64,000 bases of DNA from Streptomyces sp. NBS 14/10 (GTDB taxonomy: Bacteria; Actinomycetota; Actinomycetes; Streptomycetales; Streptomycetaceae). The notes under the pieces are model-generated. The model did no database searches and was not told the origin of the DNA. It saw only the letters and a list, made by a program, of their open reading frames with translations. Positions 6,805 through 30,696 of this stretch are shown in pieces. The translations under genes and the position numbers were made by a program. The DNA is taken from contig NZ_NCSM01000011.1 of the NCBI RefSeq assembly GCF_002224125.1, forward strand, positions 396,585 to 460,584, in the 5' to 3' direction. Numbering within the stretch: position 1 is the first letter of the stretch; every line of letters begins with the position of its first letter.

Positions 6805-6825
6805 GGAACGACACCTCGGAGACTA

Positions 6826-6837
6826 GACAACGTTGTC
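6826..6837. promoter_or_regulatory. Putative LacI-family operator (GACAACGTTGTC)
   Basis: A perfect 12-bp palindrome with a central CG lies 22 bp upstream of the start codon of the Tat-secreted enzyme. Size, symmetry and central CpG are typical of LacI/GalR-family operators. The position, between promoter and ribosome site, would suit repression. No LacI gene is in the window, so the regulator must be encoded elsewhere. Confidence 0.6.
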
Positions 6838-6963
6838 AGAGCAGGGATGCCGCATATTCTTCGACGGTCCAGGTCCGCGCGTCAACGGGTGTGACGTCAG
6901 CACTCGTCGACCGGTGGGGGCGGGGCCGCCCACCGGCCGCGCCGGGGGTCGTGCGCAATGGCG

Positions 6964-8013: not shown

Positions 8014-8115
8014 AAAGGCCAAACCCTTCAGACTCTCCATGGGGCGGACAGCGCGACATCGTCCGCGTCACTCACCTTAGGGAGATCGCCACGGCGTGCG
8101 CTTGTACCTCAGTGT

Positions 8116-8136
8116 CACTCTGATGGAACGTGAGTG
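8116..8136. promoter_or_regulatory. Weak inverted repeat in the O-methyltransferase/AraC divergent region
   Basis: Arms CACTC and GAGTG are separated by 11 bases in the 192-bp region between the divergent methyltransferase (start 8013) and AraC-type regulator (start 8206). It could be an operator for either gene. The arms are short and could arise by chance, so this is only a candidate. Confidence 0.25.
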
Positions 8137-8205
8137 CCGGGAGGCGTACGCCGTGGTGGAATGAGGCCGCGAGGGTGTAGGCCGTTGGCAAGGCGAGGCG
8201 TTGAA

Positions 8206-9243: not shown

Positions 9244-12200
9244 GGCGCCAGTTCGGCGGCTGTGGGGGCCTCGAAGACGGTCTGCAGGTCAAGGCTGGTC
9301 CCAAACCGCGCGCGGACGCGGTTGACCAGGAGCATGGCGAGCAGTGAGTGCCCGCCCAGCTCGAAGAAACTGTCGTCCCGGCTGACAGCGGGTACCCCCA
9401 GGATATCGGCGAAGAGCTTGCACAGGGCTTCTTCCCGGGCGCTGCGGGGGTGTTGTGAGGTCGAGGCGGCCGCGTGGCCGGGGGCGGGCAGCGCGGCACG
9501 GTCCAGCTTGGCGTTGATGGTCAGCGGCAGTGCCTCCAGCTGCACGAAGGCCGACGGCACCATGTACGTGGGCAGGCGCTCGGCGAGCCGGTCGGCGAGC
9601 GCGGCCGTGTCCAGTGCGGCGTCGGTGTCCGATGTCACGTAGGCGACGAGTCGTTTGTCGCCCGGCCGGTCCTCGCGCAGTGTCACCACGGCACTCCGTA
9701 CTCCGGGCAGGGCCGTCAGGGTGGCTTCGATCTCTCCCGGCTCGATCCGGAAGCCGCGGAGCTTGACCTGGTCGTCGGCACGGCCCAGGTAGAGCAGGTC
9801 GCCGTCGGCCGTCCAGCGGACCATGTCACCGCTCCGGTACATCCGTTCCCCGGCCGCGCCGAACGGGCACGCGACGAAGCGGGTGGCCGTGAGTCCCGCG
9901 CGTCCGACGTATCCCCGGGTCACGCCCGGGCCCGCGAGATACAGCTCGCCGTCCACGCCGGGCGGCACCGGCCGCAGGGCATCGTCCAGGACGTATGCCT
10001 GGGTGCCGGCGATGGGTCCGCCGATGGTGACGGAGCGGCCCGGGGCCAGGAATGCGCCGGTGGATCCCACGGTGACCTCGGTCGGCCCGTAGAGATTGAA
10101 CAACGGGTTGTCGACGGACCAGAGGTCAGCCACCACCTGCGGGACCACCTCGGACCCGGTGACGATCGTCGTTCCGGCCGGCACGGCGGCCGAGGGCAGC
10201 ACGGACAGCAGCGTCGGCGAGATCCACACATGCGTCGCGCCGTGGGCGGGCGTACTGCCGTGCTCGGCCTCGGCGAGTGCCTCGGGCCGGATGAACCGGA
10301 GCCTCGCGCCGGTGAGCAGGGCCATGCCGATCTCCCACACGGACGCGTCGAAGCCGATCGAGGCCAACTGAAGCACCACGCTCTGCGGGCCGACTCCCAA
10401 GGCGGATGTGTGTGTGCTGATCAGCCTGGCGATCCCGGTGTGCGGGACCGCGACGCCCTTGGGCATCCCCGTGGAACCGGAGGTGTAGATCACGTACGCC
10501 GTGGAGGCGATCCGCAGCGGACCGAGCCGGTCGTCGTCGCTCACCTCGGTGTCGGGGAAGCCCGCCAGGTCGAGACCGCCCAGCACGGTGGTTTCGATGT
10601 CCGCGTCACCGAGCCGCGCGGGGTCGTCCACCAGCGCCATCGTGGCCGCGGTGTCCGCCAGCATGAAGGCCATGCGCGCCGGGGGATACGCCGGGTCGAT
10701 CGGCAGGTACACCCCGCCCGCGGTGAGCACCGCCAGCATGGCCACCAGGAGGCCGGGGCCGCGCTCCGCCGACACGGCGACGGGGACCTCGGGCCCCACT
10801 CCGCGCCCGATCAGACAGCGGGCCAGCCGGTTGACGCTCGCGCTCAGCTCGGCGTACGTGAGTCCCCCGGCGCCGTCCTCGACGGCGATGGCGCCCGGCC
10901 GCTGCCGCACCTGCTGCTCGAACAGGCCGGGGATGGTCGCCGGCTCGACCTCGGTGCCATGGCCCCATTCGGCGAGGATCCGCTTCCTCTCGTCGGGGAG
11001 GAGCACCTGGTAGGTGCTGAGCCGGGCGTCGGGGGCGGCCGTTGCCTGTTCCAGCAGCTGGACCAGCCGCCGGGCCAGGCTGAGCGCGGTCGCGGGGTCG
11101 TAGAGGTCCGTCGCGTATCCGAGGCTCAGCCTGAGCTCGGAGCCCCCGGAGCCGCGGCGCTCGCTGAACTCGAATTCGAGGTCGAACTTCGCGACGTCCA
11201 GGGGCGCCGGGCCGGGCTCGCAGCGAAGGCCGGGCAACTCGAGGGCGGCGCTGGTGGCATCGGTCCAGACAAGTGCGGTCTGGAAGAGGGGGTTGCGTGA
11301 CGGGGAGCGTGTCGGCTGGAGCTCTTCCACGAGCCGGTCGAAGGGAAACTGCTGGTGTTCGAAGGCGGCCAGATCGGTCGCGCGGACCCGGGCGAGCAGA
11401 TCGGAGAAGGCCGGGTCGCCGCTGGTGTCGGTGCGCAGGACCACGGTGTTGAGGAAATAGCCGACGAGGTCGTGCAGGGCGTGGTCGGGGCGTGCCGCGA
11501 CGACGGCGCCCAGCGGGATATCGGTGCCGGCGCCCAGCTGGGTGAAGAGGGCGGCCAGGGCGGCCTGGGCCACCATGAAGGGGGTGACCCCGTGGGTCCG
11601 GGCCAGCTGTCGCAGCCGCTGGTCCAGTGCCTGGTCGACCGGCAGTTCGACCAGGCCGCCGCGGCGGGAGGCGCGGGCCGGGCGGGGCCGGTCGGCGGGC
11701 AGCGTCAGCTCCTCGGGCAGACCGGCCAGGGCCGTACGCCAGTAGTCGAGCTGGTGGCTCTGCGCACCGGCCGGATCGCCGGCGTCCCCGAGCGCGTCCT
11801 CGTACCAGAGCGCGTAGTCCGCGTACTGGACGGGCAGCGGCTCCCAGCCGGGGGCCTCACCCCGGGTACGGGCCGCGTAGGCACGGGCCAGATCGGCGGT
11901 CAGCGGTCGCATGGACCAGGCGTCGATGGCGATGTGGTGGACGGTCAGGACGAGGGTGGAGTCCTGTGGGCCGGTGGCGATCAGTTCGGCGTGCAGCGGA
12001 AGGTCGGTGGACAGGTCGATGACATGGGCGCAGGCTCGGGCGATGGCCTGCTCCGCCTGCTCGGCCGTGGTGTCGGTGAACCGCGGCCGCGGCCGGGCCC
12101 GGTCGGCGGGAACGACGATCTGAACGGGCGCCCCGTCGCGTTCGGCATAGAGCGTACGCAGCGCCTCATGCCGCGCCGTGAGGTCGGCCAGTGCCGCGGT

Positions 12201-15200
12201 CAGTGCGTCGCGGTCCACCGGCCCCTGGATCCGGGTGACCATCGGGACATTGTGCGTCGCGTCGAGGCCGTGCAGCTGATGCAGGAACCACAGGCCACGC
12301 TGGACGGGGGCCAACGGCAGCACCTCGGGGCGCGGCACGACCGCCACCACCCCCGGTGGTGTCCGGTCGGCCGACTCCTCGGCGAGGCGCGGGGCCAGTT
12401 GGGCGACGGTCGGCGCTTCGAACAGGGTGCGCACCTTCAGCCGGACGCCGAACCGGACCCGGATGCGGTTGATCAGGCGGATGGCGAGCAGGGAATGACC
12501 GCCCAGGTCGAAGAAGCTGTCGTCGGGGCCGACCCGGGTCATGCCCAGCACCTCGGCGAACATCGCGCCCAGCGTCCGTTCTGGCTCGCCCAGGGCCGCC
12601 GCCCCATCGGGGCCGGGGACGTGCGCCGGGGACGTCGGAAGGGCCTTGCGGTCCAGCTTGCCGTTCGGCGTGAGCGGCAGGGCGTCGAGGGCGATGACGG
12701 CGGACGGGACCATGTACTCGGGAAGCGCCGACCGGACGTGATCGCGGAGCTCGGTGGCGTTCGGCACCCGGCCCGGCGCGGGCACCACATACGCCAGCAG
12801 CCGCTGTTCACGGGCCACCACGACGGTGCGGGCCACCGACTCGTGCAGGCCCAGGACCGCCTCGATCTCGCCGGGCTCGATCCGGAAGCCGTGCACCTTG
12901 ACCTGGTCGTCCACCCGGCCCAGGAACTCCAGCACGCCGTCCCGGGTCCGTCGGCCCAGGTCACCGGTGCGGTACATACGGGCGCCCGAGCCGTCGCCGT
13001 ACGGGTCGGCCACGAACCGCCCCGCGGTCAGGCCGGGGCCGGCCAGATAGCCATGGGCCAGCTGTGCGCCCGCGAGGTAGAGCTCCCCCACCGCGCCCGG
13101 GGGCACCGGCCGCAGGGCCGTGTCCAGGACGTAGACCCGGGTGTTCCAGACCGGGCGGCCGATGGGGACCGGTTCCACGCCGGGGATGACCTGGGCGGCC
13201 GTCACATCGACCGATGCCTCGGTCGGGCCGTAGAGGTTGTGCAGCTCGGCGGTCGGCAGGACCTGGTGGAAGCGTCCGGCGAGCGACGCGGGCAGGGCCT
13301 CGCCGCTGCAGATGACGCGCCGCAGAGTGGTGCACCCGACCGCTGACGGCTCTGCCTCGAGCGCGTCCAGAAACGCTTCGAGCATCGACGGCACGAAGTG
13401 CGCCGTGGTGATCCCCTCGGACTCGATGAGCTCGGAGAGATAGGCCGGGTCGCGGTGGCCGTCGGGCTCGGCCACGACCAGCGTGGCCCCGGTGATCAGC
13501 GGCAGGAAGAACTCCCACACCGACACGTCGAAGCTCGCGGAGGTCTTCTGGAGCACGCGGTCGGCGGCGCTCAGCCCGTACTCGTCCCGCATCCACAGCA
13601 GTCGGTTGACTATGCCCGCGTGCGGCACGACCACACCCTTGGGGCGGCCGGTGGAGCCCGATGTGTAGATCACGTACGCCGGCAGGCTCGGAGCGTACGC
13701 CTTCGGCAACTCACCGGGCGGGCCGTCCGGCGCCGCCCCGTCCAGGATGAGGACCGGACGGGCGTCGTCCAGCATGAAGGCGGTCCGCTCGGCCGGATAC
13801 CGGGTGTCCAGCGGCAGATAGGCCGCCCCGGTACGGTGCACCGCGAGCAGCGTCGCCACCAGTTCCACCGAGCGCGGCAGCGCGACCGCCACCGTCTCCC
13901 CCGGCCCCGCGCCTTTCCCGGCGAGCACCCGCGCCAGCCGCTCCACCCGTGCGTCCAGGTCCGCGTACGTCAGCCGCTCATCCCGGAAGACCAGCGCGGT
14001 CGCGTCGGGTGTCCGCGCCACCTGCGCCCGGAACAGCTCCGGAAGGGTGGTGGACGGCACCTCGTGGGCCGTGTCGTTCCACCCGTCCACGGCCCACGCG
14101 CGCTCGTCCGCGACCAGCACGTCCAGTCGGCCCACCGGCTGTTCCGGGTCCGCCGCCACTTGCTCAAGCAGGCGGACCAGTCGCTGTGCGAGCGATTCGG
14201 CCGTGTGCGGGTCGAAGAGATCGCGACGGTAGGCGATCCGGCCGTGAAGGCGGCCGTCGGGCCCCTGTTCGGCGAGATCGAAGGCGAGATCGAAGGCGAG
14301 GTCGAACCGGAGGTCGTACGCGTCCCGGAGGTCGTACGCGTCCCGGAGGTCGTACGCGTCCCGGAGGTCGTACGCGTCCGCCGCGAGTGGGCCCACCATC
14401 ACCTGGCAGAGCGGATGCTGTGCTGGATCGAACGGCAGGTCCTGGTGCTCGTGGGCGGTCAGGAGCGTGGCATGGACCTGGGTGAGAAGGTCGTCGAAGC
14501 CGATGTCCCCGGAGAGGTCGATGCGCAGTACCAGGGTGTTCGCGAAGCGGCCGATCAGGTCCCGCGGCTCTCCGTGGGGTCGGCCGGAGACCGGTATGCC
14601 GAGCGGGATGTCGTCGCCCGCGCCGACCCGGTGCAGCAGGGCGGCGACGGCTGCCTGCGCCACCGTCGACATGCTGATGCCTCGGCCGAGGGCCGATTCG
14701 CGCAGCGCCCGCGCCGCTTCCGCGCCGACCGTGAAGTCCACGGTGGCGGCCTGTCGGCCGGGCACCTGCCCCCGAGGCCGGTCGACGGGCAACCTCAGCT
14801 CCTCGGGCAGGCCGACCAACTGATCTGCCCAGTAGTCGCGTTGCCGATCTCCCAGCCGCTCGAGCCGGTTGGCCGTCTCGGTCACGTGATCGGCGTAACG
14901 GGGCGCAGGGCCCCACTGTGGCGCCCTGCCACCCGTGCGCGCCGTGTAGGCGGTGTCGAAATCCCTGAGCAGCGGGCGTACGGACCAGGCGTCGATGGCG
15001 ATGTGGTGGACGGTCAGGACGAGGGTGGAGTCCTGTGGGCCGGTGGCGATGAGTTCGGCGTGCAGCGGAAGGTCGGTGGACAGGTCGATGACGTGGGCGC
15101 AGGCTCGGGCGATGGCCTGCTCCGCCTGCTCGGCCGTGGTGTCGGTGAACCGCGGCCGCGGCCGGGCCCGGTCGGCGGGAACGACGATCTGAACGGGCGC

Positions 15201-15449
15201 CCCGTCGCGTTCGGCATAGAGCGTACGCAGCGCCTCATGCCGCGCCGTGAGGTCCGTCAGCGCGGCGGTGAGCGCCTCCTGGTCCACCACGCCCGGGATC
15301 CGGGTCACCATCGGGACATTGTGCTTCCCATCGGGGCCGTGCAGCTGATACCGGGACCACGGGCCACGCTGCGCCGGGGACAAAGGCAGCACTTCAGGGC
15401 GAGATGCCGTTGACGCCGCGGGACCATGTGAGGACTTCTTTTCGGGCAT
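9186..15449 (-). CDS. Non-ribosomal peptide synthetase, two modules (C-A-T-C-A-T)
   Basis: About 2087 residues: C1 (20-440), A1 (455-955), T1 (phosphopantetheine Ser about 986), C2 (1075-1500), A2 (1520-2005), T2 (Ser about 2035). Both C domains keep the HHxxxD motif but read HHIAIDA, with Ala for the usual Gly, and C1's first motif is altered (SPAQRGPW). Aligning by eye to the ten GrsA pocket positions, A1 reads DVWHISLVDK, essentially the serine code, and A2 reads DAWWITLVGK, which I cannot assign. There is no epimerisation or thioesterase domain, so the chain must pass on in trans. ATG 15449 is chosen for AGG nine bases upstream; ATG 15455 is possible. The gene carries two in-frame minisatellites in C1 and a near-identical 273-bp stretch shared by C1 and C2. 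Confidence 0.93.
11913..12185 (-). repeat. 273-bp near-identical repeat, copy in NRPS1 C2
   Basis: This stretch, coding the C-domain segment from the [11 protein letters not shown] region through HHIAIDAWS, matches 14982-15254 with only two base differences that I can find, while the flanking C-domain sequence diverges quickly. The sharp edges suggest recent gene conversion or duplication between the two C domains. Confidence 0.9.
14271..14306 (-). repeat. 12-bp tandem repeat, 3 copies, inside NRPS1 C1
   Basis: Three copies of GGCGAGATCGAA (the third with one change) encode Phe-Asp-Leu-Ala three times in a row. It adjoins a second, 18-bp array two bases away. Both keep the reading frame. Confidence 0.92.
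14309..14380 (-). repeat. 18-bp tandem repeat, 4 copies, inside NRPS1 C1
   Basis: Four head-to-tail copies of GGAGGTCGTACGCGTCCC, the last differing in one base. They encode the hexapeptide AYDLRD four times (about residues 357-380), where C domains normally have one short strand entering the second subdomain. Copies are contiguous with no spacers, so this is a minisatellite and not a CRISPR. It adds about 18-24 residues to the domain. Confidence 0.95.
14982..15254 (-). repeat. 273-bp near-identical repeat, copy in NRPS1 C1
   Basis: Partner of 11913-12185, two mismatches over 273 bp. The encoded segment includes the catalytic HHxxxD region, so both C domains have the same active-site surroundings even though the rest of each domain differs. 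Confidence 0.9.
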
Positions 15450-15593
15450 TACCATCGACCTGCCAATCTTCGCTCACACTATGGCGTCAACCACTGGGGT
15501 CCGCAGCTTAATTGTGCTCCGTGGCACGTCGGCCGAGGATGCCGTCTGTGATGTTTACGGAATCGCGGGGCACTCGAAAGGGATATATCGCAA

Positions 15594-16628
15594 ATGAATG
15601 ATTTCGAACCTCGCCTGATAGAGGCGCTGCAACCGGTGCGCCACTTCTTCCTGGCGCAGGCGATCGAGTTCGGCCTGACCTCCGGGCTGCTGGACGAACT
15701 GGCTGCCGACCGGACGACAGCCGACCGATCACCGGCGAATGTGGCGAAACGGTTGAGCATGGACCCCGACCGCCTCCTCGGCCTCCTGCGCTACTTCGCG
15801 GCCGAGGGCATCGTGCGCGATCCCGAGACCTCCCCGCGGCTGACGCACAAGGGGGAGGAGGCGCGTCGGTTCCGGCCGTGGTACGAGCTGCTGATCGGCG
15901 GGTATTCCGCGACCCTTGGGGAACTGCCGGCCGTCATGGCCGACCCGAGGGCGTATGCGGGACGTAACGGCGGCATGGTGGGCCTGGGCAGCTGCGGGAT
16001 CAGCCGCCACGATGCCATACCTCTGGTACGGCGCCTGCTGGCGCTGCTGCCGGAAGAGCCCGCGGTCGTGGTCGATCTCGGCTGCGGGGACGGCTCGTTC
16101 CTGCTCGAAATCCGCGCGGACGGGGGCCGGGGAATCGGCATCGACCCGGACGCGAGCAGTATCGCGCGCGCCCGTGCGCTCTCCCGTGAACAAGGACGCG
16201 GGGCGGAGATGACGTTCGATGTGTCCACGGCTCAGGATTTCCTGTCCCGCAAACTCGATCTGCCGCACCGCTCGGTCTGCTTCATCACGGCGTTTTCCCT
16301 TCAGGAAGTACTGGAACAGCGCGACCGCGGGGCAGTGGTCGACCTTGTGCGCTCCGCGCTCGAGCAGGCGCCGGAGTCCTATCTGATTGTTGTGGAGGTC
16401 GACCATCGGCCTACCGACCCCGCTGTCATGAGGCATGGCCTGGGGCTGGCCTACTACAATCCCTATTACCTGTTGCACCAGGTGACGGAGCAGCGGCTCG
16501 AGACCACCGAATTCTGGCGGGACCTCTTCGCCGAAGCGGGTGGCTCGGTCGTCGAATGTCTGACCACTGACCCGGAGGTCGACTCGACCGGCCTTGAACT
16601 CGGCTTCCTTGTCCGGAAGGCCGGTTAG
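15594..16628 (+). CDS. SAM-dependent methyltransferase, resembles 2-ketoarginine (alpha-keto acid C-) methyltransferases
   Basis: A 344-residue class I methyltransferase. Residues about 1-100 are a helical winged-helix cap, and the SAM-binding motif VVDLGCGDGSF lies at about 156-166 with the acidic strand end GIGIDPD. The segment GGMVGLGSCGISRHDAIPLVRRLL before the SAM motif reminds me of the MrsA/MppJ group, which methylates the beta carbon of alpha-keto acids such as 2-ketoarginine; this is from memory, not from an alignment. The neighbours are a PLP aminotransferase and an arginine-dependent amidinotransferase, so beta-methylation of a guanidino keto acid is an attractive inference. Its stop overlaps the convergent aminotransferase stop by 4 bp. 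AAGGGA precedes the ATG. Confidence 0.8.
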   Translation: MNDFEPRLIEALQPVRHFFLAQAIEFGLTSGLLDELAADRTTADRSPANVAKRLSMDPDRLLGLLRYFAAEGIVRDPETSPRLTHKGEEARRFRPWYELLIGGYSATLGELPAVMADPRAYAGRNGGMVGLGSCGISRHDAIPLVRRLLALLPEEPAVVVDLGCGDGSFLLEIRADGGRGIGIDPDASSIARARALSREQGRGAEMTFDVSTAQDFLSRKLDLPHRSVCFITAFSLQEVLEQRDRGAVVDLVRSALEQAPESYLIVVEVDHRPTDPAVMRHGLGLAYYNPYYLLHQVTEQRLETTEFWRDLFAEAGGSVVECLTTDPEVDSTGLELGFLVRKAG

Positions 16629-17794
16629 GTCCGCTGCCGGACTTCCCAAGCGGCCATGGCCCGGTCGAGCAGTGCGAGACCTTCCTGGATCATCCGGGGT
16701 GCCAGGCCGGTGGGAAAGCGAATGAATCCCGGGATCACCGGAGCGTAGTTCTCCGATGTCGTGAGCACGAGCCGGTATTCGTCGAGAGCGAAGTCGGCGA
16801 AAGCCTCGACATCGGCCATCCCGAGGTCCATCCAGAGCTGGGTGCCACCGTTCGGCAGCGGGGCGTCAAGGAGGTGATGACCGGCCGCGCCGCACCGTAC
16901 GGCGTCGCGGCCGGCCCGAACCCCGTCGACCAGCGCGGCATTTCCATGGCCGATGACCACCGCCGCGAGCTGCTGCGCCCGACTGTTGATCGAAACGGCC
17001 TCCCACTCCAGACGGGGGACGATTCGGCCGACCGTCTCTTCATGCCCGGTGATCCAGCCGATCCGGTCGCCGGGCCGTCCGTAGTTTTTCGACATGGAGT
17101 TCACCACGACCAGGTCGGGCCTGCCGACCGCCAGATCGACGGGAGCAGCGCAGAATTCCCGCCCGAAGGAGAAGGAATCGTAGACGGCGTCGTAGACCAC
17201 CAGGACGTCGTGCGCGTCCGCGAACTTGCTCAGGAAACGCGGATACCCGGCCGCCGCCGTGGCTCCTGTGGGGTTGTGCGGGAAATTGACGTACAGGACC
17301 GTGGGCTCGCCGCACATGGGGGCGAGCACGTCCCAGTCCTCCGCCGACCCCGTGAGCGCAGCCGTCTCGACCGCCAGCCCTGCCGCCAGCATCGCGTCGT
17401 GCACTCCGCGGAACACCGGAGCCTGGCAGACCGCCTTCCGGTATCCCCTGGCGACGCCGTCCCGGAACACAAGCCCCAGAGCGTGCATTCCGCCGGCACT
17501 GACGACGATGTTCGACGGATGTACGGCCGCGCTTCCGGACATCTCGCGCTCGCGCCGGGCTATGGCCTCGCGCAGGACCGGCAGCCCCTGCGAAGGCGCG
17601 TAGAAGTACGGAGCGTCGTCGGAATCCGGAGAAGCCGTACGGGATTCCGGCCGCTTCCCCTCCGGCCAGCAGGGAACGTTCTCCACAAGAACCGACCATG
17701 GTTCGTCGGGCCGCGACTCGGCGATCGCCAGCCGGCGCTGCAGGGCGGACACAGCCGGTGTTGCGAGGTTCTTTTCGATGAACTCCGATCGCAT
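16625..17794 (-). CDS. PLP-dependent fold-type I aminotransferase
   Basis: A 389-residue class I/II aminotransferase-fold enzyme. The motifs visible are NPTG (Asn174), the Asp of VVYDAVY (Asp202, with Tyr205) and the Schiff-base lysine in NSMSKNYGRPGDR (Lys236), with a C-terminal arginine in GFIRFP. The ATG at 17794 overlaps the amidinotransferase stop as TGATG, so the two are translationally coupled. Related secondary-metabolism enzymes include arginine transaminases (MrsB-like), the arginine oxidase MppP and capreomycidine synthase VioD. I cannot tell which chemistry applies. With the ketoarginine-type methyltransferase next door, interconversion of arginine (or another guanidino acid) and its keto acid is the simplest reading. 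Confidence 0.85.
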   Translation of the reverse strand: MRSEFIEKNLATPAVSALQRRLAIAESRPDEPWSVLVENVPCWPEGKRPESRTASPDSDDAPYFYAPSQGLPVLREAIARREREMSGSAAVHPSNIVVSAGGMHALGLVFRDGVARGYRKAVCQAPVFRGVHDAMLAAGLAVETAALTGSAEDWDVLAPMCGEPTVLYVNFPHNPTGATAAAGYPRFLSKFADAHDVLVVYDAVYDSFSFGREFCAAPVDLAVGRPDLVVVNSMSKNYGRPGDRIGWITGHEETVGRIVPRLEWEAVSINSRAQQLAAVVIGHGNAALVDGVRAGRDAVRCGAAGHHLLDAPLPNGGTQLWMDLGMADVEAFADFALDEYRLVLTTSENYAPVIPGFIRFPTGLAPRMIQEGLALLDRAMAAWEVRQRT

Positions 17795-18846
17795 CAGCGG
17801 TACGTCTCCAGTGTTCCGGTTCTGCGGATGTCGAGGGAGACGCAGTGGAACGATCCGCCCAGGGTGCGCGCGTGGGTGAGGCGCATCGGAAGGACGTTGA
17901 TCCCGTGCTTCTCCAGAGCGCGGAGAAGCGCGGGCTGGCGCTCGTCCGCCACCACCAGATCCTCCCTGATGACCAGGAGGTTCATGCCGACCCAGGGGGA
18001 ACCGTAGGGGTACTCCCCCGCATACTCGGTCTCGGTCATTTCGGGGCACCAGAGATGGTCCCAGCCGCGGAGGTAGTCCGGCATGTTGTTGTCGTTGACG
18101 CGCTCAGGATTGAGGAGTACGAGTCCGGGCCGGAGCGGGACGATGGTGGTGTCGATATGGGTTCCGGTGTAGATGTCACGGCAGGGATGAACCGTGTAGG
18201 TGTCCCCCAGCGCCGACTGGAGCCATTTCCAGCCCAGTTCGTTTCCGCTGTCCGACACCAGATACAGCAGATCGGTCCCGCAGCGCATCACGTTGGCCGC
18301 GTCGAATGCCGGTTCCAGGTTTCCGAGCCGCCGTCCGGGCTCCGCGTCCATGTCGTACATGTCGTCGCCGAGCCGTGGCTTCGGCGCCGATATCCAGCGC
18401 GCTCCGCTTTCAAAGAACTCCAGCAGCATGTTCTTGTAGGCGAAGGGTTCCAGGAATCTCGACCGAAGAACCATGGGGGTCTCGATGACGGTTCTGCCCA
18501 CGGTCAGAAAGACATCGCGCGGGCAGTAGTCGTAGAAGCCGTCGGTCTGCCAGTCCGGGGTGGCGAGCTTCGCCGCGTGATCGCGGGCCTCGGGCCGCCG
18601 GACCTTCACGCCGATTTTCGTGAGCTCATCGCAGAGCATGGACAACTCATGCTCGGTCTCCTCGACAATATGGCGCGCATACGGACCGGAAGGGATTTTG
18701 TCTACCGTGCCGTATTCCGGGTACTCCAGAGTGAACAGGCCCTTGTCGGGGATCGGTACGCGGGCGCCGGTCGCGGTGCCGATGATGACTTCTTCGAGCG
18801 GATCCCACTCGTTGTGCACATCGACCAGACTAAACGGATTTGTCAC
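17794..18846 (-). CDS. Arginine-dependent amidinotransferase (AGAT/StrB family)
   Basis: A 350-residue enzyme that moves the amidino group of arginine to an amine acceptor, releasing ornithine. Family marks are clear: N-terminal HNEWDPLEEVIIG, YCPRDVF, the GTHIDTT histidine motif, and the nucleophilic cysteine near the C-terminus in GGSFHC (about Cys335). The GTG at 18846 is chosen because GGGGAGGGG stands six bases upstream; earlier in-frame starts have no ribosome site and would add an atypical tail. It heads a coupled operon with the aminotransferase, and its promoter region is shared with the divergent MFS/NRPS operon. The acceptor is unknown; glycine, beta-alanine or a diamino acid are possible. 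Presence in an NRPS cluster implies a guanidino building block. Confidence 0.92.
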   Translation of the reverse strand: MTNPFSLVDVHNEWDPLEEVIIGTATGARVPIPDKGLFTLEYPEYGTVDKIPSGPYARHIVEETEHELSMLCDELTKIGVKVRRPEARDHAAKLATPDWQTDGFYDYCPRDVFLTVGRTVIETPMVLRSRFLEPFAYKNMLLEFFESGARWISAPKPRLGDDMYDMDAEPGRRLGNLEPAFDAANVMRCGTDLLYLVSDSGNELGWKWLQSALGDTYTVHPCRDIYTGTHIDTTIVPLRPGLVLLNPERVNDNNMPDYLRGWDHLWCPEMTETEYAGEYPYGSPWVGMNLLVIREDLVVADERQPALLRALEKHGINVLPMRLTHARTLGGSFHCVSLDIRRTGTLETYR

Positions 18847-18994
18847 GGCAAACCCCTCCCCGTCGCCCGCATACGCCGTCATGACTGCGGGCAATCTAGG
18901 AGATTCCGCGGCCCGGCGACAAGCCTTGCACATTTGATCTCGGCCCTGAAATCATGGCCGAATTATTTTGGGCGGTGGCAAGCGGGGGCAGGGC

Positions 18995-20227
18995 ATGGCG
19001 TCGGCTGAAGCGGGTGAGACGACCGCGGGTTTGCGTCCGCTGCGCAGGAACTGGCGGTTTCAGCTGCTGTGGGGAGGTGCCGCGGCATCGCTGCTCGGCT
19101 CCCGCATGTCCACCACCGCGTATCCGCTCCTGTTGCTGGCGATGACCGGATCGACGTTCGCCGCCGGAGCGTTCAGCGGAGTGCAGCTTCTGACGCAGGT
19201 GCTCTTCGGGATCCACGCGGGCACTGTCGCGGACCGTCACGACCGCAGGGTGGTCCTCATCGTGGCCGACGGGCTGCGCTTCCTGGCGTCCCTGACCGTC
19301 CCCCTCGCCCTCGCGATGGACCGGCTGACCCTCACCCACATCCTGCTGGTCGCGGTGGTGGTCGGCGCCACCATGGCGTACGCGTTTCCGGTCCGGACGC
19401 TCGCGATTCGCTCGGTCGTGCCCAAGGCGCAGCTGCGGCAGGCACTCGCCCAGGACGGCTTGCGGACCAACGGTACGGGGCTACTGGGGCCGCCGCTGGC
19501 GGGATTCCTCTTCGGGATCGGCCGTTCGGCTCCGTTCATCGGCGCGACTGTCGGCTCGCTGCTCTCGTTCGGCGCGGCCTGCGCGGTCCCGTTCGACGGC
19601 AAGGCGGAGACGAGCGGGGGGAAGGCGCGCGGCGGAGCCCTGGAGGGAATCCTCTTCCTGGCCCGGAGCCCGCTGCTGCGGGCCACGGTGGGCATCACCT
19701 TCGCGCTCTATCTGGTCTGTTCCGCCACGGTGCTGTCGTGCCTGGTGCTCCTGCAGCGCGAGGGGGTCGGCAGCGCCGGCATCGGCCTCGCCCTGTCCGG
19801 CGAGGCGGTGGGCGGGATCGTCGGGGTGCTCTTCGTCAGCCGGCTGCACCGGCTGATGGGCCCCGGGAAGCTGCTGATCGCCGCGTCCTGGCTCTATGTG
19901 CCGCCGCTCCTGGTGCTGCCGCTGTCCAGCAGCCCGGTCCTGGTCTTCTTCGTACTCGCGGTGATGCTGCTCAGCGACCCGTCGCTCGATGTGATGACCG
20001 ATGTGCTGATCTTCCAACAGGTCCCCGACGAGCTGAGGGGCCGGGTCATGGCCGCGACCTTCATGCTCTTCACCCTGGGAATGCCCGCCGGGACGCTCGG
20101 CAGCGGCCTGCTGCTCGACTTCCTGTCGCCCGGCGCCATGTTCACACTGCTCGCGGCGGTACTGGCGGTCGCTCTGGTACCCCTCACCCTCAACCGCACA
20201 CTGTGGGAGTCCGGATGGCCGGCCTGA
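18995..20227 (+). CDS. MFS transporter, probable peptide exporter
   Basis: About 410 residues with roughly twelve hydrophobic segments and the motif-A-like loop [10 protein letters not shown] between TM2 and TM3. It belongs to the MFS_3/enterobactin-exporter-like group often found in siderophore and NRPS clusters. ATG 18995 follows a GGGGGCAGGG stretch; an in-frame TTG at 18968 is less likely. Its last codons overlap the start of the next NRPS gene by 13 bp (ATG at 20215), so the exporter and the terminating synthetase should be made together. The intergenic 18847-18994 must hold divergent promoters for this operon and for the amidinotransferase. Confidence 0.88.
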
Positions 20228-23200
20228 TTCCGCTGTCCTTCGCCCAGCAGCGCCTGTGGCTCATCGACCGGCTGGAAGGGCCCAGCCCGGTCTACAACGT
20301 CCCCTTGGCGCTGCGATTCTCCGGGGCCGTGAACCATGCCGCCCTGGAGGCCGCCCTGCGGGATGTGGTGGTCCGCCACGAGAGTCTGCGCACGGTGTTC
20401 ACCGAGACGGAGGGGGTGGCGCACCAGGACATCCTCGATCCGGAGGCGCTGAGCGTGCCGTACGAGGTGGGTGAGACGGATGAGGCGGCGCTCGCCCATG
20501 ACCTCGAGGAGTTCGGGGCGCGCCCCTTCGACCTGGCGCGCGAGCTGCCCGTCCGCGCTCGGCTGTTGCTACTGGCACCGGAGGAATCGGTACTGGCGCT
20601 GGTGATTCACCACACCGCCTGCGACGGCTGGTCCATCGGCCCGCTCTTCCGTGACCTCGGGACCGCGTACCGGGCGCGGTGCCGGGCGGACGGCCGCGCA
20701 CCGCAGTGGGAACCGCTGCCGGTCCAGTACGCGGACTACTCCCTCTGGCAGCGGGAGATGCTGGGGGACGAGGACGACCCGGACAGCGAGGTGTCCCGCC
20801 AGTCCGCCTTCTGGTCCGCCGAACTCATCGGCCTGCCCGAGCAGTTGTCGCTGCCCGCCGACCGGGCCCGTCCGGCCGTGAGCGACTTCCGTGGTGGGGC
20901 CGTACCGATCGAGGTGGGCGCCGAGGCCCACCGCGGACTGACCCGGTTGGCACGGGACGCGCGGGCCAGCTCCTTCATGGTGGTCCAGGCCGCGCTGGCG
21001 CTGCTGCTGACCAGGCTCGGGGCCGGCACCGACATCCCGATCGGCACCGTGACGGCGGGCCGCGACGAGGTGGCGCTGGAGGAACTGGTCGGCTTCTTCG
21101 CCAACACTCTGGTCCTGCGCACCGACACCTCCGGCAACCCCACCTTCCGGGAGTTGCTGGAGCGGGTGCGGAGCAGGACCCTGAAGGCGTACGCACACGG
21201 CGAGCTTCCGTTCGAACGAGTCGTGGAACTCATCAGCCCCGAGCGGTCCCTGGCCAGGCATCCGCTCTTCCAGGTGATGCTGGTCTTCGAACCCGAGGGT
21301 GATGCCGTCCCCGAACTGCCGGGGTTGCGCGTCGGCCTCGAAGAGGTGGACACGCGAAGCGCCAAGTTCGATCTGACCGTCAGTCTGAGGGAGCGATTCG
21401 GCGGCGACGGTGAACCGGTCGGCCTGTCAGGGGAACTCCGTTATCGCACCGATCTGTTCGACCATGGGACGGCCGAGCGTATGGCCGCCCGTCTGGTACG
21501 GATCCTGGCCGCCGCCGCACGGAATCCGGAGCTTCCCGTCGGACGCGTCGATATCCTCGACGCCGCCGAGCGGCACCATGTGCTGACCGAGTGGAACGAC
21601 ACCGGCCTGGACGCACCCGCCCCGAGCCTGCCCGCGCTCTTCTCGGCCCAGGCCGCCCGGACGCCGGCCGCACCGGCCGTGTCCGACGGCGGCCTGGTGC
21701 TCACGTACGCGGAGCTGGACGCGCGGGCCAACCGGCTGGCACAGCTGCTGGCCGCCCGCGGAATCGGCCCGGAGAAGCTGGTCGCGGTCGCCCTGCCCCG
21801 TTCGGCGCAGGCCGTTATCGCGCTGCTGGCCGTCCTCAAGGCAGGGGGCGGCTACCTTCCGCTGGACCCCGGCTATCCGGTGGAACGGCTCGGCGCCATG
21901 CTCCGTGACGCCCGGCCGGAGCTGGTCCTCACCACGGCACCGGCCGACCCGACGACCGAGCCCGCCATCCCCCGGCTGTGCCTCGACAGCTCGCCGGTCC
22001 AGACCGAGCTGGAGAGCCGGCCCGCCACCGATCCGGCCGTGCGGACACATCCCGGTCATCCGGTCTATGTCATTTACACCTCAGGATCGACAGGCCGTCC
22101 CAAGGGTGTCATCGTCACCCACGGAGCTCTGGCCGACTACCTGGCCTGGGCGCGCCGGGCCTACCCGGCGACCGCCGGTACGGTTCTGCTCCATACGTCG
22201 CTCTCGTTCGATCTGACGGTCACCGCCCTGTGGACGCCGCTGACGGTCGGCGGCTGCCTGGTCACGGCTTCGATCCCGGAGCCGGCCGAGATGGCGGAGC
22301 CGGCCGGTATGGAGTTCACCTTCGTGAAGGCCACACCGAGTCATCTGCCGCTGCTGGCCGAGGCATCCGGCATCTGCTCGCCCACCGGTCAGCTGCTGCT
22401 CGCAGGCGAAGCCCTCACCGCCGAGGCGCTTCACAGATGGCGCCGCCGGCACCCGGACATGACCGTGCACAACGTGTACGGACCGACGGAGACCACGGTC
22501 AGCTGCGCCGACTTCCCCGTGGAGCCCGGTGCCGAGCTCCCGCCCGGAACGGTGCCCATCGGCCGTCCCCTGGCCAACACCCGGATCTACGTGCTGGATT
22601 CCGCGCTGGCCCCGGTGCCGCCCGGTGTCGTGGGCGAACTGTACGTCGCGGGCTCGGGCCTGGCCCGGGGATATCTGGGCCGGCCGGGCCTGTCGGCCGA
22701 GCGGTTCGTCGCGTGCCCTTTCGGAGCCCCGGGCGAGCGGATGTACCGCACCGGCGATCTCGCACGGTGGCGGCCGACCGGGGTGCTGGAGTTCATGGGG
22801 CGGGCCGATCAGCAGGTCAAGGTCCGCGGCTTCCGTATCGAACCCGGCGAGATCGAGACCGTACTGGCCGCCGACCCGGTCGTGGGACAGGTCTCGGTGG
22901 TGGCTCGGGAGGACAGGTGGGGAGACCAGCGGCTGGTCGCGTACGTGGTGCCCGCCGAGGGCGGGACACCCGAGAGCGTGGACGGCTCGGCCGTACGCGA
23001 GCGGGCGCGGCGACTGCTGCCGGAGTACATGGTGCCCGCCGTCGTGGTGCCGCTCCCGGCGCTGCCGCTGACGCCGAACGGCAAGCTCGACCGTGCCGCC
23101 CTGCCCGCGCCGCGGCCCAGCGCCGGGAAGTCGTGCCGGGGACCGGGCACGCCGGTCGAAGAGGTCTTGTGCGAGCTGTTCGCGGAAGCTCTCGGCGCCG

Positions 23201-24096
23201 AGGGGATCGGCGCCGACGAGGGGTTCTTCGAACTGGGCGGCCACTCGCTGCTCGCCGCCCGGCTGGTCGGCCGGATCGCGGCCCGGCTGGGCGTGGAGGT
23301 GCGGCTGCGGGACCTGTTCGAGGCGCCTACGGTCGCCGAACTCGCCAGCCGTCTGGGCCGGGTCGGCGAGCGCGACGGGGCGGCCTTCGACGTCCTTCTG
23401 CGGCTTGGGGCGGGCGGTTCGGGCACCCCGCTGTTCTGTGTGCATCCGGGTGGTGGCATCAGCTGGTGCTACACCGGGCTGATCCGCCATCTGCCACCGG
23501 ATCTGCCGGTGTACGGACTACAGTCCCGGGCGTTGTCGCCCGAGGCGACGCGCCCCGCGACCATCGAGGAGATGGCGCGCGACTACCGCGAGCAGATCGT
23601 CTCAGTGCAGCCCGTCGGCCCGTACCGGCTGCTCGGCTGGTCCTTCGGCGGCCTCGTCGCGCATGCCGTCGCCGTACAGCTCCAAGAGGCGGGCGAAGAG
23701 GTGCGGTTCCTCGGCATGCTGGACAGCTATCCGGAGTTCCATGACGACGGCGACCGGCTTCCCCGGTGGGGGGAGGACGGCGCGGTGGAACTTCTCCACG
23801 AGGCGATCGGTGGACTCGACGGGCTCGCGGCGGACGAGATGCCGCGGGTGCTGGCCGCCCTGAGGCATCATCGTGCGCTGTGGCGGGGTTACCTACCCCT
23901 GCGTTACCGGGGAGATCTCCTCTTCTTCACCGCCGCCCTGGACCGGCCCGAGCTCCGGGACGCGGTCAGGGAGTGGACCCCTTTCATCGAGGGGACGATC
24001 GAGGAGATCTCCGTCGAGTGCGCTCATCCGGCGATGCTGTCCCCCGGACCGTCGACCGTGATCGGAAGAGCGCTGGCAGCCGCGCTCTCCCCCTGA
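20215..24096 (+). CDS. Non-ribosomal peptide synthetase, terminating module (C-A-T-TE)
   Basis: A 1293-residue single module. C (5-430) has an intact HHTACDGWS with His132/His133. A (450-950) has a good A3 core ([11 protein letters not shown]) and pocket residues that I read as DLTKLAVVSK; DLTK is the hallmark of aspartate/asparagine-type pockets, though the second half is not a standard match. T has its Ser at about 1011 (GGHSLL). The C-terminal type I thioesterase (1065-1290) has the nucleophile Ser at about 1143 in GWSFGG. This should be the last module, releasing or cyclising the chain. ATG 20215 overlaps the MFS stop. Its 3' end overlaps the convergent third NRPS by 73 bp. Confidence 0.94.
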
Positions 24097-27000
24097 CCTG
24101 CCCGGCCCACGAGGTCCACAGATCCGTCGCCGCGCAGTCGGGCCCGGGCGCCGGTGCGGTACATCCGCCCGCCGGGCGGCCCGTACGGATCGGCCACAAA
24201 GCGCTCCGCGGTGCGGGCCGGTCGTCCCGGGTAGCCACGGGCAGGCCCCGGACCGGGCAGGTACAGCTCGCCGACGACGCCGGGCGGCACCCGCCGCCCG
24301 GCTCCGTCCAGTACGTAGGCCGGAGGCCGGTCGGCACTCGGGTAGGTGTCCGAGACTTGCCCGGCCGAGACCTGCCCGGCCGAACGGCGGGACGTGACGG
24401 TCACGCGGCCGCCCCGCAGCAACTGCCCCCACCATTCCCATACGGTGAAGTCGAAGTCGTCGCCGAACCCGGGACAGGCATCGGCACCGGTCCCGGTGAT
24501 CACACGCAGCACGTCCTGGTGGGAGAGGACGGCCCCCAGGGGTTCGCCATGCGCGCTCGCGGCCCGGACCACGCAGGCGGCGCCGGTGGGCTGTGGAGCC
24601 GGTGTGCGGAGGTCCGGCGGGGTGGCCGGTCCTGGTTCGCCGATGACCAGTGTGGGCAGGTCGGCGGGGAGGAACCAGGCATGGGCACGATCCGTGACGG
24701 TCAGGACGGGCGGGCAGTCGGTCGGCAGCAGTTCCAGACGCTCGTCCGGCGTGCCGGGGTCGAGCGGAAGACAGCAGCCTCCGGCTCTGAGTACGGCGAG
24801 CGTCGCGATCACCAGGTGGGCCGAGCGCGGCAGCGCCACCGCCACGGTCAGCTCCGGCCCCACCCCCGCCTCCCGCAGCATCAGCGCCATCTGGTCCACC
24901 CGCTCACCGAGTTCGGCGTACGTGAGCTCGGTGGCGCCGTACACCACCGCGATCCGGTCGGGTGTGCGCCGGACCTGGGCGTCGAAGAGGGAGATGACGG
25001 TCTGCCCGTCGACGGTCTGCCCGTCGGCGATCGGCGGTGGCGAGCACTCCGCGCCGGTCGGCGGTGCCGCGAGCGGGCGGGTGGCGGAGAGGGGCAGGTC
25101 GGACAGGCGGGTGTCCGGAGCTGCCGCCACGCTGTGCAGCAGCGTGCGCCACAAGGAGGTGATCCGCTCAGCGGTGTCCGCGTCGAAGAGTTCGGTGCGG
25201 TACGAGAGCACGCCCTGGAGCCCGGAGCCGGTCTCCCAGAGCTGCATGCCGAGGTCGAACTGTGAGGTGCTGACGTCGAACGGTACGGGCTCCACCGTGA
25301 GTCCGGTCAGTTCGGCCGTCTCCGGGGCGTTGTTCTGCAGTACGAAGAGCACCTGGGCCAGCGGATTGTGCCATGGGCTCCGGTCCGGGTTCAGCTCCTC
25401 GACGATCTTCTCGAACGGCACGTCCTGGTGCGCATAGCCGTCCAGCGCCACTCGCCGTACCTGGTCCAGCAAGGATCGGAAGGTGGGATTCCCGGAAAGG
25501 TCGGCGCGCAGCGCCAGGGTGTTGACGAAGAAGCCCACGAGACGGTCGAGTTCGGTACGGCCCCGGGCAGCGGTCGGCACGGCCACCACGATGTCGTCCT
25601 GACCGCTGAGCCTGCCCATCAGGCAGTGGAAGGCCGCGAGCAGGGTGATGAACACCGTGGCGCTGCCGGCCTGGCTGACGGCGCGGATCCCGTCCAGAAC
25701 ATCTGCCGGGACGCGGAATTCCACCACCCGTCCCGCCGAACTGCCGGCAGCCTCGCGAGGCCGGTCGAAGGGCAGCTCGATGGCCGTCGGCGCGCTGGCC
25801 AGCCTTTCCTTCCAGTAGTCCAGTTGGTGTGCGAGAACCCCCTCCCGCAGCCAGTCGCGCTGCCACACCGCGTAGTCGGCGTAGCTCACCGGCAGCTCGG
25901 CCAGGCCCGCCCGCTCCTGGTGACCCCCGGCCGCGTAGAGGGCGGCCAGGTCCTCGAAGAAGACGCTGCCGGACCAGCCGTCGGTGACCAGGTGGTGCAT
26001 GGTCAGCAGCAGGATGTGCTCGTCGGCGGCCAGACGCAGCAGCTCCGTCCGCATGAGCGGTCCCCGGACCAGGTCGAAGGGGCGCATGGCCTCCTCGCCG
26101 ACCAGCCGCTCGGCCTCGCGCGTCCGCTCTTGCTCCCCCAGCCCGCTGAGGTCGGTGAGACCCAGCTCCCAGGACGGCGCGGGCCGGATCACCTGCCACG
26201 GCTCGCCGTCATCGGAACCGAAGACCGTACGCAGCACCTCGTGGCGTTCGGCCATCGCCTCCAGACTCCGCCGCAGCGCCTCCCGGTCGAGGGCGCCGCG
26301 CAGCCGCAGCGGAGAGGCGATGTTGTAGGCCGGGCTGCCCGGCTCCAACTGGTCGATGAACCACAGGCGTCGCTGGGCGAACGACAGCGGGAGCCGCTGT
26401 CCAACAACCCGGGGCAGGGGCACGATCGGCGGCGTCGTCGGTGTGCCGGACCGCAGCGACGCCTCGGCCCGTTCGGCGAGGCCCGCGATCGTCGGGCTCT
26501 CGTAGATCGCGCGAACCGGGAGCTCGGCGCCCAGATCGGTGCGGATCCGGGCGAGCACCTGGGTGGCCAGGAGTGAATGGCCGCCGATGGAGAAAAAGTT
26601 GTCGTGCACGCCGATGCCGCCGAGCCCGATGACAGCGCTCCAGATGCCCCCGATGATCTCCTCGGTCGGGGTGCGTGGCTCCGCGCCGCCGCCGACCTGG
26701 GCGGAGAGCTCCTGTTCGGGGCTCGGCAGCCCTCGGCGGTTGAGCTTTCCGTTGGAGTTGAGCGGCATGCTCTCCAGCAGCACGATCGCTGAAGGGATCA
26801 TGAAGCCCGGCAGCCGCCCACGCAGGTGATCGCGCAGCCGGGCCCGGGTCTCCCGCTCCCATGTGGGCCGTGTTTCGCCCGAAGTCGGCCACCGTCCGGC
26901 GGCGACCGACGCATAGGCCACCAGATGCCGGTCCCCAGGGGCCTTGTCGTGCACGATGACCAGGACGTCCTCGACATCCGGGTGGCCGCGCAGGGCTTCC

Positions 27001-29684
27001 CCGACCTCCCCCAGCTCGACCCGGAAGCCACGGACCTTCACCTGGTGGTCGGACCGGCCGACGATCTCGATCGTGCCGTCGGGGCGGTACCGGGTCAGAT
27101 CACCGCTGCGGTAGAGCCGTGCCCCGGGGACCCCGCTGAACGGGTCCGGAACGAAACGGGTCGCGGTCAGATCCGTCCGGCCGAAGTAGCCGCGGCCGAC
27201 CCCGTCTCCCCCGACATAGAGCTCACCCGCGACTCCGGGCGGGACCGGCTGCAGTGCGCTGTTGAGGATGTAGATCCGGCTGCCCGGCAGCGGGCGGCCG
27301 ACCGGGAGTGCGCCGTCGGGGTCGTCGCCGGGGTGGCCCTCGGCGAAGTGGGTGTTGTCGATGGTGGACTCGGTGAGACCGTAGGTCCCGGCCATCACGG
27401 TCCCCGGGTGGCACAGCCGCCGCGCGCGCTCGAAGTCGCGTACGTACCAGACATCGCCACCCGCCATGAGGAAGTCCAGGAACTCCAGCGACTCCCCGCT
27501 CGCCTCGACATGGTCCAGGAACACCCGCAGCAGCGGCGGTACGAACTCCGCGCTGTTGACGTCTTCCTGGATCATCAGGTCCAGCAGCTCCGGTGGCGAC
27601 AGCGAGACCTCGCGCGGGCACACCACCAGCGTGGCGCCGGTGAACAGCGCGCGCATGGTGTCGCCCATGAACATGTCGAAGGAGAAGCTCGCCATCTGCA
27701 CATGAGCCCTCAGTCGCCGGCTCAGGTCGTAGCGCTTCTCGAACGAGTGGAAGTAGTTGACGAAGTTCGCGTGCGTGAGCATCGCGCACTTGGGGGTTCC
27801 GGTCGAGCCCGAGGTGTAGAGCATGCCCGCGAGATTCGACGGGAGCACGCCGCTGACCGGCGGGAGCGTCGGCTGTGACCGTATCTCCGCGTCGTCCCTG
27901 TCCACCAGGAGGACGGGTACGGCGTCGGCTCCGGTCAGGGCCGCTGCCGTGGTGGCGTCGGAGATCAGCAGCGAGGCCCTGGAGTCCGACAGCATGAACG
28001 CCAGGCGCTCCGCCGGGTAGTCCGGGTCCAGCGGGATGAAGGTGCCCCCCGCCTTGAACACCGCGAGAAGGGCGACCAGAGTCGCGGCCGAGCGCTCCAG
28101 GCAGATGCCGACGCCGGTTTCGGGCCCGACCCCTCGGGAGCGCAGGGCGTGCGCCATCTGGTTGGCGCGCTCGTCCAGTTGCCGGTAGGTGAGGCGCTGA
28201 TCCCGCCACACCACCGCGAGGGCTTCCGGCGTACGGCGGACCTGCTCCTCGAAGAGGGTGTGCAGACACCGGGGCTCACCGCGCTCCGAGCCGGTCTCGT
28301 TCCAGCCGGTCAGGATCTGCTCGCGTTCCGCCGGGAGGAGCAGGCGCAGCGCGCTGACCGGCCGGTCGGGGTTGGCCAGGGCGTCTTCGAGCAGCTGCCG
28401 CAGGTGTCCGGCCATGCGCCGGATCGTGGCGGGCTCGAACAGGTCGGTGCTGTATTCCAGCTCGCAGACCAGCCGCTCCCCCAGATGCCTTACCCCCAGG
28501 GTGAGATCGAACCTGGCCGAGGTGCGCGGCAGGTCGATGCGCTCCACCGCGAGCCGGGCGAATTCCGGTGCTTCCTCTGCTTCCTCTGCTTCCTCGCGCC
28601 CTTCCGACGCGCGGAACAGCACCTGGAACAGTGGGGTGGAACTCGGATCACGTTCCGGCTGAAGGATTCTGATCAGCTCTTCGAATGGCACGTCGCCGTG
28701 CACCCGGGCTTCCCGCACCGCCGCGTCCACCCGGCGGACGACCTCGCCGAATCCGGGCTCGAGCCGGGCGCCGGAAAGGTCGCTGCGGAGCACCACCGTG
28801 TTGGCGAAGTGCCCGATCGCGCTGTCCGGTTCGCCCTGCGGCCGGTTGGGCAGAATCGTGCCCACCGCAATGTCCCGCTGGTCGCAGTAGCGAGCAAGCA
28901 GGGTCTTGAACGCCGCGAGGACCGTGGTTGCCACGGTGGTCCCCCGGCTGTCGCTGAAGCCGGTCAGCCGGGCCGTCAACTCCCGGCCGAGCTCAAAGCT
29001 TTGGGCTGCCCCGCGTCCGCTCCGTACGGCGGGCCGCCGTTTGTCGCAGGGCAGCCGCAGCATCGCGGGCACGCCGTCGAGCCGCTTGCGCCAGTACTCC
29101 AGCGAGGCGGCGTACGACCGGCCGCGCTGCTCGCGGGCGTAGTCGGCGTACCGCGGGGAGGGCGTGGGCAGCACGGGGGGCCTGCCGTCCAGGAACGCCG
29201 CGTAGACCTGCCCGAGCTCGCGAAGCAGCACCTCCATGGACGCGCTGTCAAGGACGATCTGGTGCGCGGTGACGGCCAGCGCGTGGTCCGCGCCGGACAG
29301 GCGCACCAGCCGCAACCGGATCAGCGGCCCCGACGCAAGATCGAAGGGGGCGTCGGCCTCCTCGCTCAACAGCCGCTCCGTCTCGGATTCCCGCCGGTCT
29401 TCCGGGAGCGCGCCGAGATCGGTGAACGACAGCGGAAGGTCCGCGCTCTCGGCCTGTACGCACACCGGTACGCCGGCCCTGTCGGGGAAGCGGGCCCGGA
29501 GCGTGTCGTGGCGCCGCGCGATCTCGCCGAAGGCCCGACGCAGCGCCTCGATATCCAGGTCCCCCCGGATGCGCAGGGCGACAGCGACGCTGTAGACCGA
29601 GTTGCCCGGCCGCAGTCTGTCGAGGAACCAGAGCTGCTCCTGTCCGAAGGACAGCGGCAGATCGTGCGGGGCTGAGTCGGCCAT
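24024..29684 (-). CDS. Non-ribosomal peptide synthetase, C*-A-T-C plus truncated degenerate A domain
   Basis: 1886 residues. C1 (5-430) has a broken active site: HHxxxDG is replaced by HQIVLDS (His141, Gln142), so the catalytic second histidine is gone. A1 (450-1000) is intact in outline (GSTGTPKC with Cys for Gly) and its pocket reads DMGELATIDK, close to ornithine-type codes with acidic Glu278, so a basic residue is likely. T1 has Ser about 1037. C2 (1085-1515) is normal (His1230/His1231, Asp1235). The last domain (1530-1886) is an A domain that lost its A3 Gly/Ser-rich loop, the segment between A4 and A6 that carries most pocket residues, and everything after A8, including the catalytic Lys and any T domain. 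GGTGAGG precedes ATG 29684. Confidence 0.93.
24352..24381 (-). repeat. 15-bp tandem duplication in the degenerate A domain of NRPS3
   Basis: Two head-to-tail copies of a GAGACYTGCCCGGCC unit encode Ala-Gly-Gln-Val-Ser twice. It lies exactly where the A5/pocket segment is missing, so it may mark the deletion junction. Confidence 0.85.
24996..25025 (-). repeat. 15-bp tandem duplication in the C2-A* linker of NRPS3
   Basis: Two identical copies of GACGGTCTGCCCGTC encode Asp-Gly-Gln-Thr-Val twice in the linker before the degenerate A domain. The frame is kept. Confidence 0.85.
28570..28596 (-). repeat. 9-bp tandem repeat in C1 of NRPS3
   Basis: Three copies of GCTTCCTCT (last base changed in the third) encode Glu-Glu-Ala three times, in the same C-domain area as the minisatellite of the first NRPS gene. 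Confidence 0.8.
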
Positions 29685-29816
29685 AACCTCACCAGGAACC
29701 GATGGAGCACTGCCAAGGCGATGAGATTAGCGGATCATCAGCCAGCCGGATCACGACATCAGCTGGGTAGTGGATGTCGGCGCCGGTTGTCACAGGCGTG
29801 GTCTAGCCTCCGAAAT

Positions 29817-30611: not shown

Positions 30612-30696
30612 TGGCCTCGTCGGGCAACTTCTCGCCCCCGTGACGTGTGCCTTCGCTGTACCGCGACCGCGCACGCTCCGCCGGGGTACGACGACG

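Follow-up and report, generated by a model that had tools for sequence, protein, structure and literature searches.

The window analysed here, a 64,000-nt stretch of the Streptomyces sp. NBS 14/10 genome, contains an NRPS cluster with the following genes.

9186..15455, minus strand: NRPS1, C-A-T-C-A-T, first C degenerate (Pfam, alignment, dN/dS)
15594..16628, plus strand: 2-ketoarginine methyltransferase (TIGR04543; 485 bits, cut-off 425)
16625..18049, minus strand: beta-methylarginine aminotransferase (TIGR04544; 538 bits, cut-off 350)
17794..18933, minus strand: amidinotransferase like inosamine-phosphate amidinotransferase (PDB 1bwd, 1.1e-163)
18968..20227, plus strand: MFS exporter (Pfam)
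20212..24096, plus strand: NRPS4, C-A-T-TE, convergent with NRPS3 (Pfam)
24024..29684, minus strand: NRPS3, C1-A1-T1-C2-A*, 1886 aa (single open frame and Pfam domains)

The methyltransferase, aminotransferase, amidinotransferase and exporter genes all lie between NRPS1 and NRPS4, and the true start of the aminotransferase is probably downstream of the start of its ORF. The enzymes matching TIGR04543 and TIGR04544 stand beside the amidinotransferase, within window positions 15594-18933. In S. milbemycinicus, which carries an orthologous cluster, locus L094 lacks window 3850-9180, a segment of the left flank, and the SDR, O-methyltransferase and AraC genes have no match in the three loci tried. 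Since the flanks differ in this way, the cluster core spans approximately 9186-29684.

The open frame of NRPS3 is divided as follows.

28335..29684, minus strand: C1, with HQIVLDS (29244-29264) at the HHxxxDG position
26730..28262, minus strand: A1, complete (Pfam)
26460..26672, minus strand: T1, residues 1005-1075, sole carrier of NRPS3 (PP-binding 1013-1072; motif IGGHSL at 26588)
25080..26390, minus strand: C2, motif MHHLVTDG intact, HH being residues 1230/1231 (Pfam, motif, dN/dS 0.36)
24099..24998, minus strand: A*, a gutted adenylation remnant (alignment to intact M. noduli A2, dN/dS 0.41, neutral simulation)
24350..24379, no strand: 15-bp tandem duplication, private to the window strain (copies 24350-24364 and 24365-24379, 93% identical)
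24027..24098, minus strand: 24-residue tail, antisense of the 3′ end of the NRPS4 thioesterase (NRPS4 stop ends at 24096)

Pfam assigns to NRPS3 two Condensation and two AMP-binding stretches, while PP-binding and the A C-terminal domain occur once each, both in module 1, with no second AMP-binding_C match. Pfam and the open frame, read over the whole of NRPS3, agree that no T domain lies behind A*, where there is a stop codon instead. The preliminary description was right on this point, and also in describing C2 as a normal condensation domain with histidines at 1230 and 1231, for which Pfam and the motif concur. The C2 motif reads MHHLVTDG in all four copies of NRPS3 (window, P0006, P0007 and S. 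milbemycinicus). C1 reads HQIVLDS in place of HHxxxDG in the same four copies, and HHIVFDG in Micromonospora noduli; by this motif, C1 is probably a catalytically dead leading C domain.

The 324-residue A* piece matches the Pfam AMP-binding profile at 2e-33 in two stretches, the better of which covers profile positions 1-239 of 384. We read its motifs against the intact A2 of M. noduli P0045, the nearest such relative found, to which A* is 54% identical over 298 columns in the position behind C2. The alignment thus points to a remnant that descends from an A domain and follows a C domain. The labels A1-A10 are applied to A* in their usual sense, with YTSGSTGxPKG as the consensus of the A3 loop.

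In the alignment to M. noduli A2, the A1-A2 region, the 10-residue A4 and A6 are retained in A*. A3, previously described as missing, is present at full length, with 20 residues standing against 20, and is mutated: the 11-residue phosphate-binding loop keeps its position, with its catalytic residues replaced. The aspartate of A7 (YRTGD) is also replaced, the motif reading YRTGA in three copies and YRTGH in P0007, and A8 breaks off after GRA, with the rest of A8 to A10 and the C-terminal subdomain absent. Hence the earlier report of A1-A2, A4 and A6-A8 patches holds for A1-A2, A4 and A6, and has to be amended for A7 and A8; the earlier statement that nothing remains beyond A8 agrees with the end of homology at GRA. 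There are two internal deletions, both found in all four copies, and with them the A4-A5 pocket is lost. One removes the segment between A4 and A6, including A5, as had been noted, and the other, an addition to that account, removes approximately 10 residues directly before A4. Judged by the known role of each A-domain motif, A* should not adenylate, and is predicted to be incapable of ATP-dependent amino acid activation.

Two further features concern the origin of this shape. The 15-bp duplication at the pocket, to which the preliminary description drew attention, is real, but does not mark the lesion: it is absent from all three orthologues, which share the same gap, and is therefore a small private in-frame change. 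In addition, the A* homology runs as far as 24099, 2 bp from where the convergent NRPS4 finishes with its stop codon (24096), so that the last 24 residues of NRPS3 are essentially the antisense of the NRPS4 thioesterase end. From this arrangement, the NRPS3 gene was probably cut at the point where it joined NRPS4. An AlphaFold model has a mean pLDDT of 79, with weak stretches within A*; because 47 of the 49 input sequences contain an A3 motif, its A-like shape is partly expected.

A search for orthologous clusters, as had been proposed, recovered the same A*, with the same gaps, the same frame and the same end, in Streptomyces NPDC059679 (P0006, 1884 aa), NPDC005970 (P0007, 1865 aa) and S. milbemycinicus NRRL 5739. 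P0006 and P0007 represent 13 and 5 member sequences, respectively, and it is the representatives that were read; the S. milbemycinicus copy is available as DNA, spread over two contigs (L029 and L031). A* is 94.5% (P0006), 87.4% (P0007) and 91.5% (S. milbemycinicus) identical to the window copy, and there are small indels among the copies at the deletion point. The seven core genes of S. milbemycinicus can be aligned in frame almost from end to end; NRPS3 is the gene split over the two contigs, the amidinotransferase reaches the edge of its locus, and the adjoining NRPS4 is complete both there and in the window. A recent private deletion or a frame error, either of which had been named beforehand as refuting, is contradicted by the likeness of the four copies.

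On these sequences A* is conserved, but narrowly. In a DNA search at 1e-60, no match came from any of the 391 other genomes drawn from the genus, and the cluster is rare by this measure. In a set of 100 genomes that includes the strain's own, the matches listed elsewhere are short partial stretches, and a search of viral_contigs returned no relative. A scan of genome_contigs gave at least 65 loci; of the three read individually, L029 and L031 carry the orthologue and L030 an intact relative. The latter, M. noduli P0045, has the order C-A-T-C-A-T-C and is the closest relative found in which the second A is intact; it is 53% (C1), 62% (A1), 66% (T1), 61% (C2) and 54% (A2) identical to NRPS3. Neither the protein searches nor a motif-distance screen revealed further carrier-less C-A* proteins that would make up a wider family. 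The first protein search scored the 7967 candidates sharing most words, of which 6216 passed and 120 were listed as matches; in the second, all 5776 were scored and 1890 passed, and among the 120 matches listed the full query is covered only by P0005 (the window copy), P0006 and P0007. The motif-distance screen, which is limited to A domains with an A4 matching a single pattern, gave 7 matches among 334 proteins, 4 of them NRPS3 copies (P0001, P0005, P0006 and P0007). The other candidates, P0027, P0171 and P0196, proved on reading of their sequences to be chance matches.

S. milbemycinicus is the single orthologue with DNA, and dN/dS was calculated with bootstrap intervals between it and the window. 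A* has a dN/dS of 0.41 (0.22-0.73), against 0.33 for C1, 0.30 for A1, 0.36 for C2, and 0.32, 0.31 and 0.52 for the C, A and TE domains of NRPS4. For the N half of A* the value is 0.33 (0.15-0.71) and for the C half 0.51 (0.22-1.09), the latter not clearly below 1 by itself. The linker (2.6) and the NRPS3 tail (1.8) are unconstrained, with wide intervals. In 2000 neutral simulations of A*, based on fourfold-degenerate sites of NRPS3 and NRPS1, the median dN/dS was 1.35 (95% range 0.89-2.16) and no run fell to 0.41 or below; furthermore, 46.5% of the runs gained a stop codon. A* is under purifying selection in this one genome pair. As orthologues carry the same A* and dN/dS is low, A* is neither an error nor the product of recent decay.

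Comparison with outgroup domains gives a different rate on the older branch. From a random sample of at most 240 of 608 A domains or of 530 C domains, the 60 most similar were kept, and for each we asked whether the NRPS3 domain or its M. noduli counterpart is the less identical. A* is the less identical in 60/60, i.e. accelerated; C2 is so in 24/60, i.e. not accelerated; C1 in 38/60; and A1 in 56/60, with a smaller gap than for A*. The second-position GC of A* is also raised (0.58 vs 0.47-0.49). We read this history as loss of catalytic constraint on the older branch, after which a new constraint, structural in kind, has kept A* in place.

The remainder of the cluster bears on where C2 could find an acceptor. 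One simple pattern detects four carrier-like motifs in the core at 9186-29684, two in NRPS1, one in T1 of NRPS3 and one in NRPS4; all four are accounted for, so none remains to serve C2 in cis. In NRPS1, the motif of the first C is HHIAIDA. Part of the C6-C7 stretch of this domain is missing from P0125 and from the window copy but kept in P0126, and its dN/dS is 0.58 (0.38-0.89) versus 0.30 for the second C of NRPS1. Since it retains HHIAID, this domain may still be active. This leaves three well-preserved C domains beside four complete A-T units, which is the number needed for a tetrapeptide begun by NRPS3.

Partial or dead A domains have been described in other NRPS systems. In the closest published precedent found, module 13 of glidonin GdnB has the order C13-A*-T13-TE, and C13 condenses a free amine, putrescine; folding is reported to require both A* and T13, and T13 is also essential in vivo (PMC10587159). 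Like NRPS3, it has a partial, non-activating A* behind a C domain, and so offers a precedent both for a role of A* and for a free-amine acceptor. However, the glidonin A* consists of the C-terminal subdomain only and is followed by T and TE (PMC10587159), whereas the A* of NRPS3 is an N-terminal core with nothing behind it. The kutzneride A*, as recounted in PMC10587159, is likewise a dead A* that an NRPS line of actinomycete type has retained; it is described as non-functional yet critical for a stand-alone A to load Glu, and our scan of the core genes revealed no stand-alone A. In fungal SidD/Nps6, the dA of module 2 is truncated, lacks approximately 290 N-terminal residues and is inactive in a module still at work, but there a T follows and is loaded by A1 (PMC10192304), while behind the A* of NRPS3 there is no T to load. 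Albicidin-type A domains, which are also present but non-functional, are complemented in trans by a separate A-T unit (PMC8949500, a review); no such unit turned up in our scan of the core genes. M. noduli differs in having A2 and T2 complete, and in its neighbour genes (P450, VioC-like oxygenase and DpgC-like).

With glidonin, kutzneride and SidD published, the proposal that a conserved A* would be a new NRPS architecture can apply at most to the version without T. A partial A* after a C domain is already known; the new element is the absence of a carrier behind A*. We found no C-A* end without T in the literature, and nothing on this particular cluster, in searches whose reach excluded most subscription papers.

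We consider it about evenly balanced whether A* is a non-adenylating structural remnant retained to hold C2, with C2 using an outside acceptor, either a carrier of NRPS1 or a free amine. The ancestor of NRPS3 would have been built like the C-A-T-C-A-T-C protein of M. noduli, with A* as the leftover of its second A. The 3′ part of that domain would have been lost where NRPS3 now meets the convergent 3′ end of NRPS4, together with the two internal pieces. NRPS3 would act as the initiating subunit, with C1 dead and T1 loaded by A1, and C2 would couple the T1-bound residue to an acceptor not present in cis. The likeliest acceptor would be the first carrier to be loaded in NRPS1, a subunit with a degenerate first C, and a free amine would be the alternative; the last residue would then be added by NRPS4 and the product released by the NRPS4 TE. 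A* would be retained as the folded partner that C2 requires behind it, forming a C-A platform or stabilising the subunit's end. We infer the structural role, the activity of C2, its acceptor, the C2-A* contact and the order NRPS3-NRPS1-NRPS4. In favour of this reading, A* is accelerated while C2 is not, and the C2 motif is intact in every copy; against it, A1 of NRPS3 also evolves faster than its M. noduli counterpart, and the T13 that glidonin required in vivo has no counterpart behind A*. Moreover, since the dead C1 is conserved too, conservation of C2 is no proof of catalysis.

Other readings share some of this evidence. C2 might couple the T1 residue to an amine in solution, either free methylarginine produced by the cluster or a polyamine, with A* stabilising C2. 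The absence of a carrier behind C2, the methylarginine enzymes and amidinotransferase encoded in the cluster, and the use of putrescine by glidonin C13-A*-T13 would all fit such a release step (PMC10587159). Yet NRPS4 carries its own TE, so that two ends would exist, and glidonin needed T13 in vivo (PMC10587159), and we regard this outcome as unlikely. We judge it improbable to a similar degree that C2-A* is skipped altogether, in which case T1 would deliver its residue directly to NRPS4 or to the first C of NRPS1, with C2-A* an inert tail that serves protein stability only. C2 has no cis carrier, and the dead C1, kept at a dN/dS of 0.33, shows that inert domains can be kept; but the C2 motif is unchanged in four copies, C2 is not accelerated, and the NRPS1 first C that would have to take over is degenerate.

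Slow or neutral decay, in which the module is broken and the open frame and similarity are carried over from a recent common ancestor, would account for the acceleration of A* on the older branch, its raised second-position GC and the small indels at its deletion point. It sits poorly with a dN/dS that no neutral run reached, with the stops gained in nearly half of those runs, and with an identical frame and end in all copies, and we hold it to be very unlikely; recent decay is set aside on the orthologues and the simulation. The evidence favours the scaffold reading over decay, and the choice offered earlier between an inactivated cluster and a scaffold or docking element is moved towards the latter by the shared A* and the purifying selection in one pair. 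Short-read assemblies of NRPS genes can collapse, and a sequencing or assembly error might in that way conceal a normal A-T. Four copies with identical gaps and end, beside an NRPS4 that is complete in the window and in S. milbemycinicus, rule this out, leaving it a negligible probability.

More generally, and only tentatively, the carrier-less C-A* end could be a kept functional NRPS unit, in which a dead N-terminal A core serves as platform for a terminal C that condenses onto another subunit's carrier (or a free amine), the first C of the receiving subunit degenerating. If so, a condensation domain would work between proteins without a module of its own. It is easy to dismiss dead or partial A domains as annotation noise or decay, but the remnant described here has a defined shape that selection maintains in related strains. 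It makes testable whether a C domain needs an A core purely as a structural base, a question with a bearing on the choice of sites for cutting and joining NRPS proteins. The locus also marks a cluster whose gene content suggests a methylarginine peptide as its predicted product.

In S. milbemycinicus (L094, L029), approximately 7.5 kb of other DNA replaces the SDR region (window 29738-30693), and part of it matches window 63575-64000. Within NRPS1, the first C contains a private repeat run at window 14271-14378, in which DAYDLR occurs four times and is followed by FDLA copies, with a single DAYDL at this site in two orthologues. Between the two C domains of NRPS1, window 14982-15254 and 11913-12185 are nearly identical in DNA, with runs of 161, 69 and 41 bp that match exactly, a pattern suggestive of recent gene conversion.
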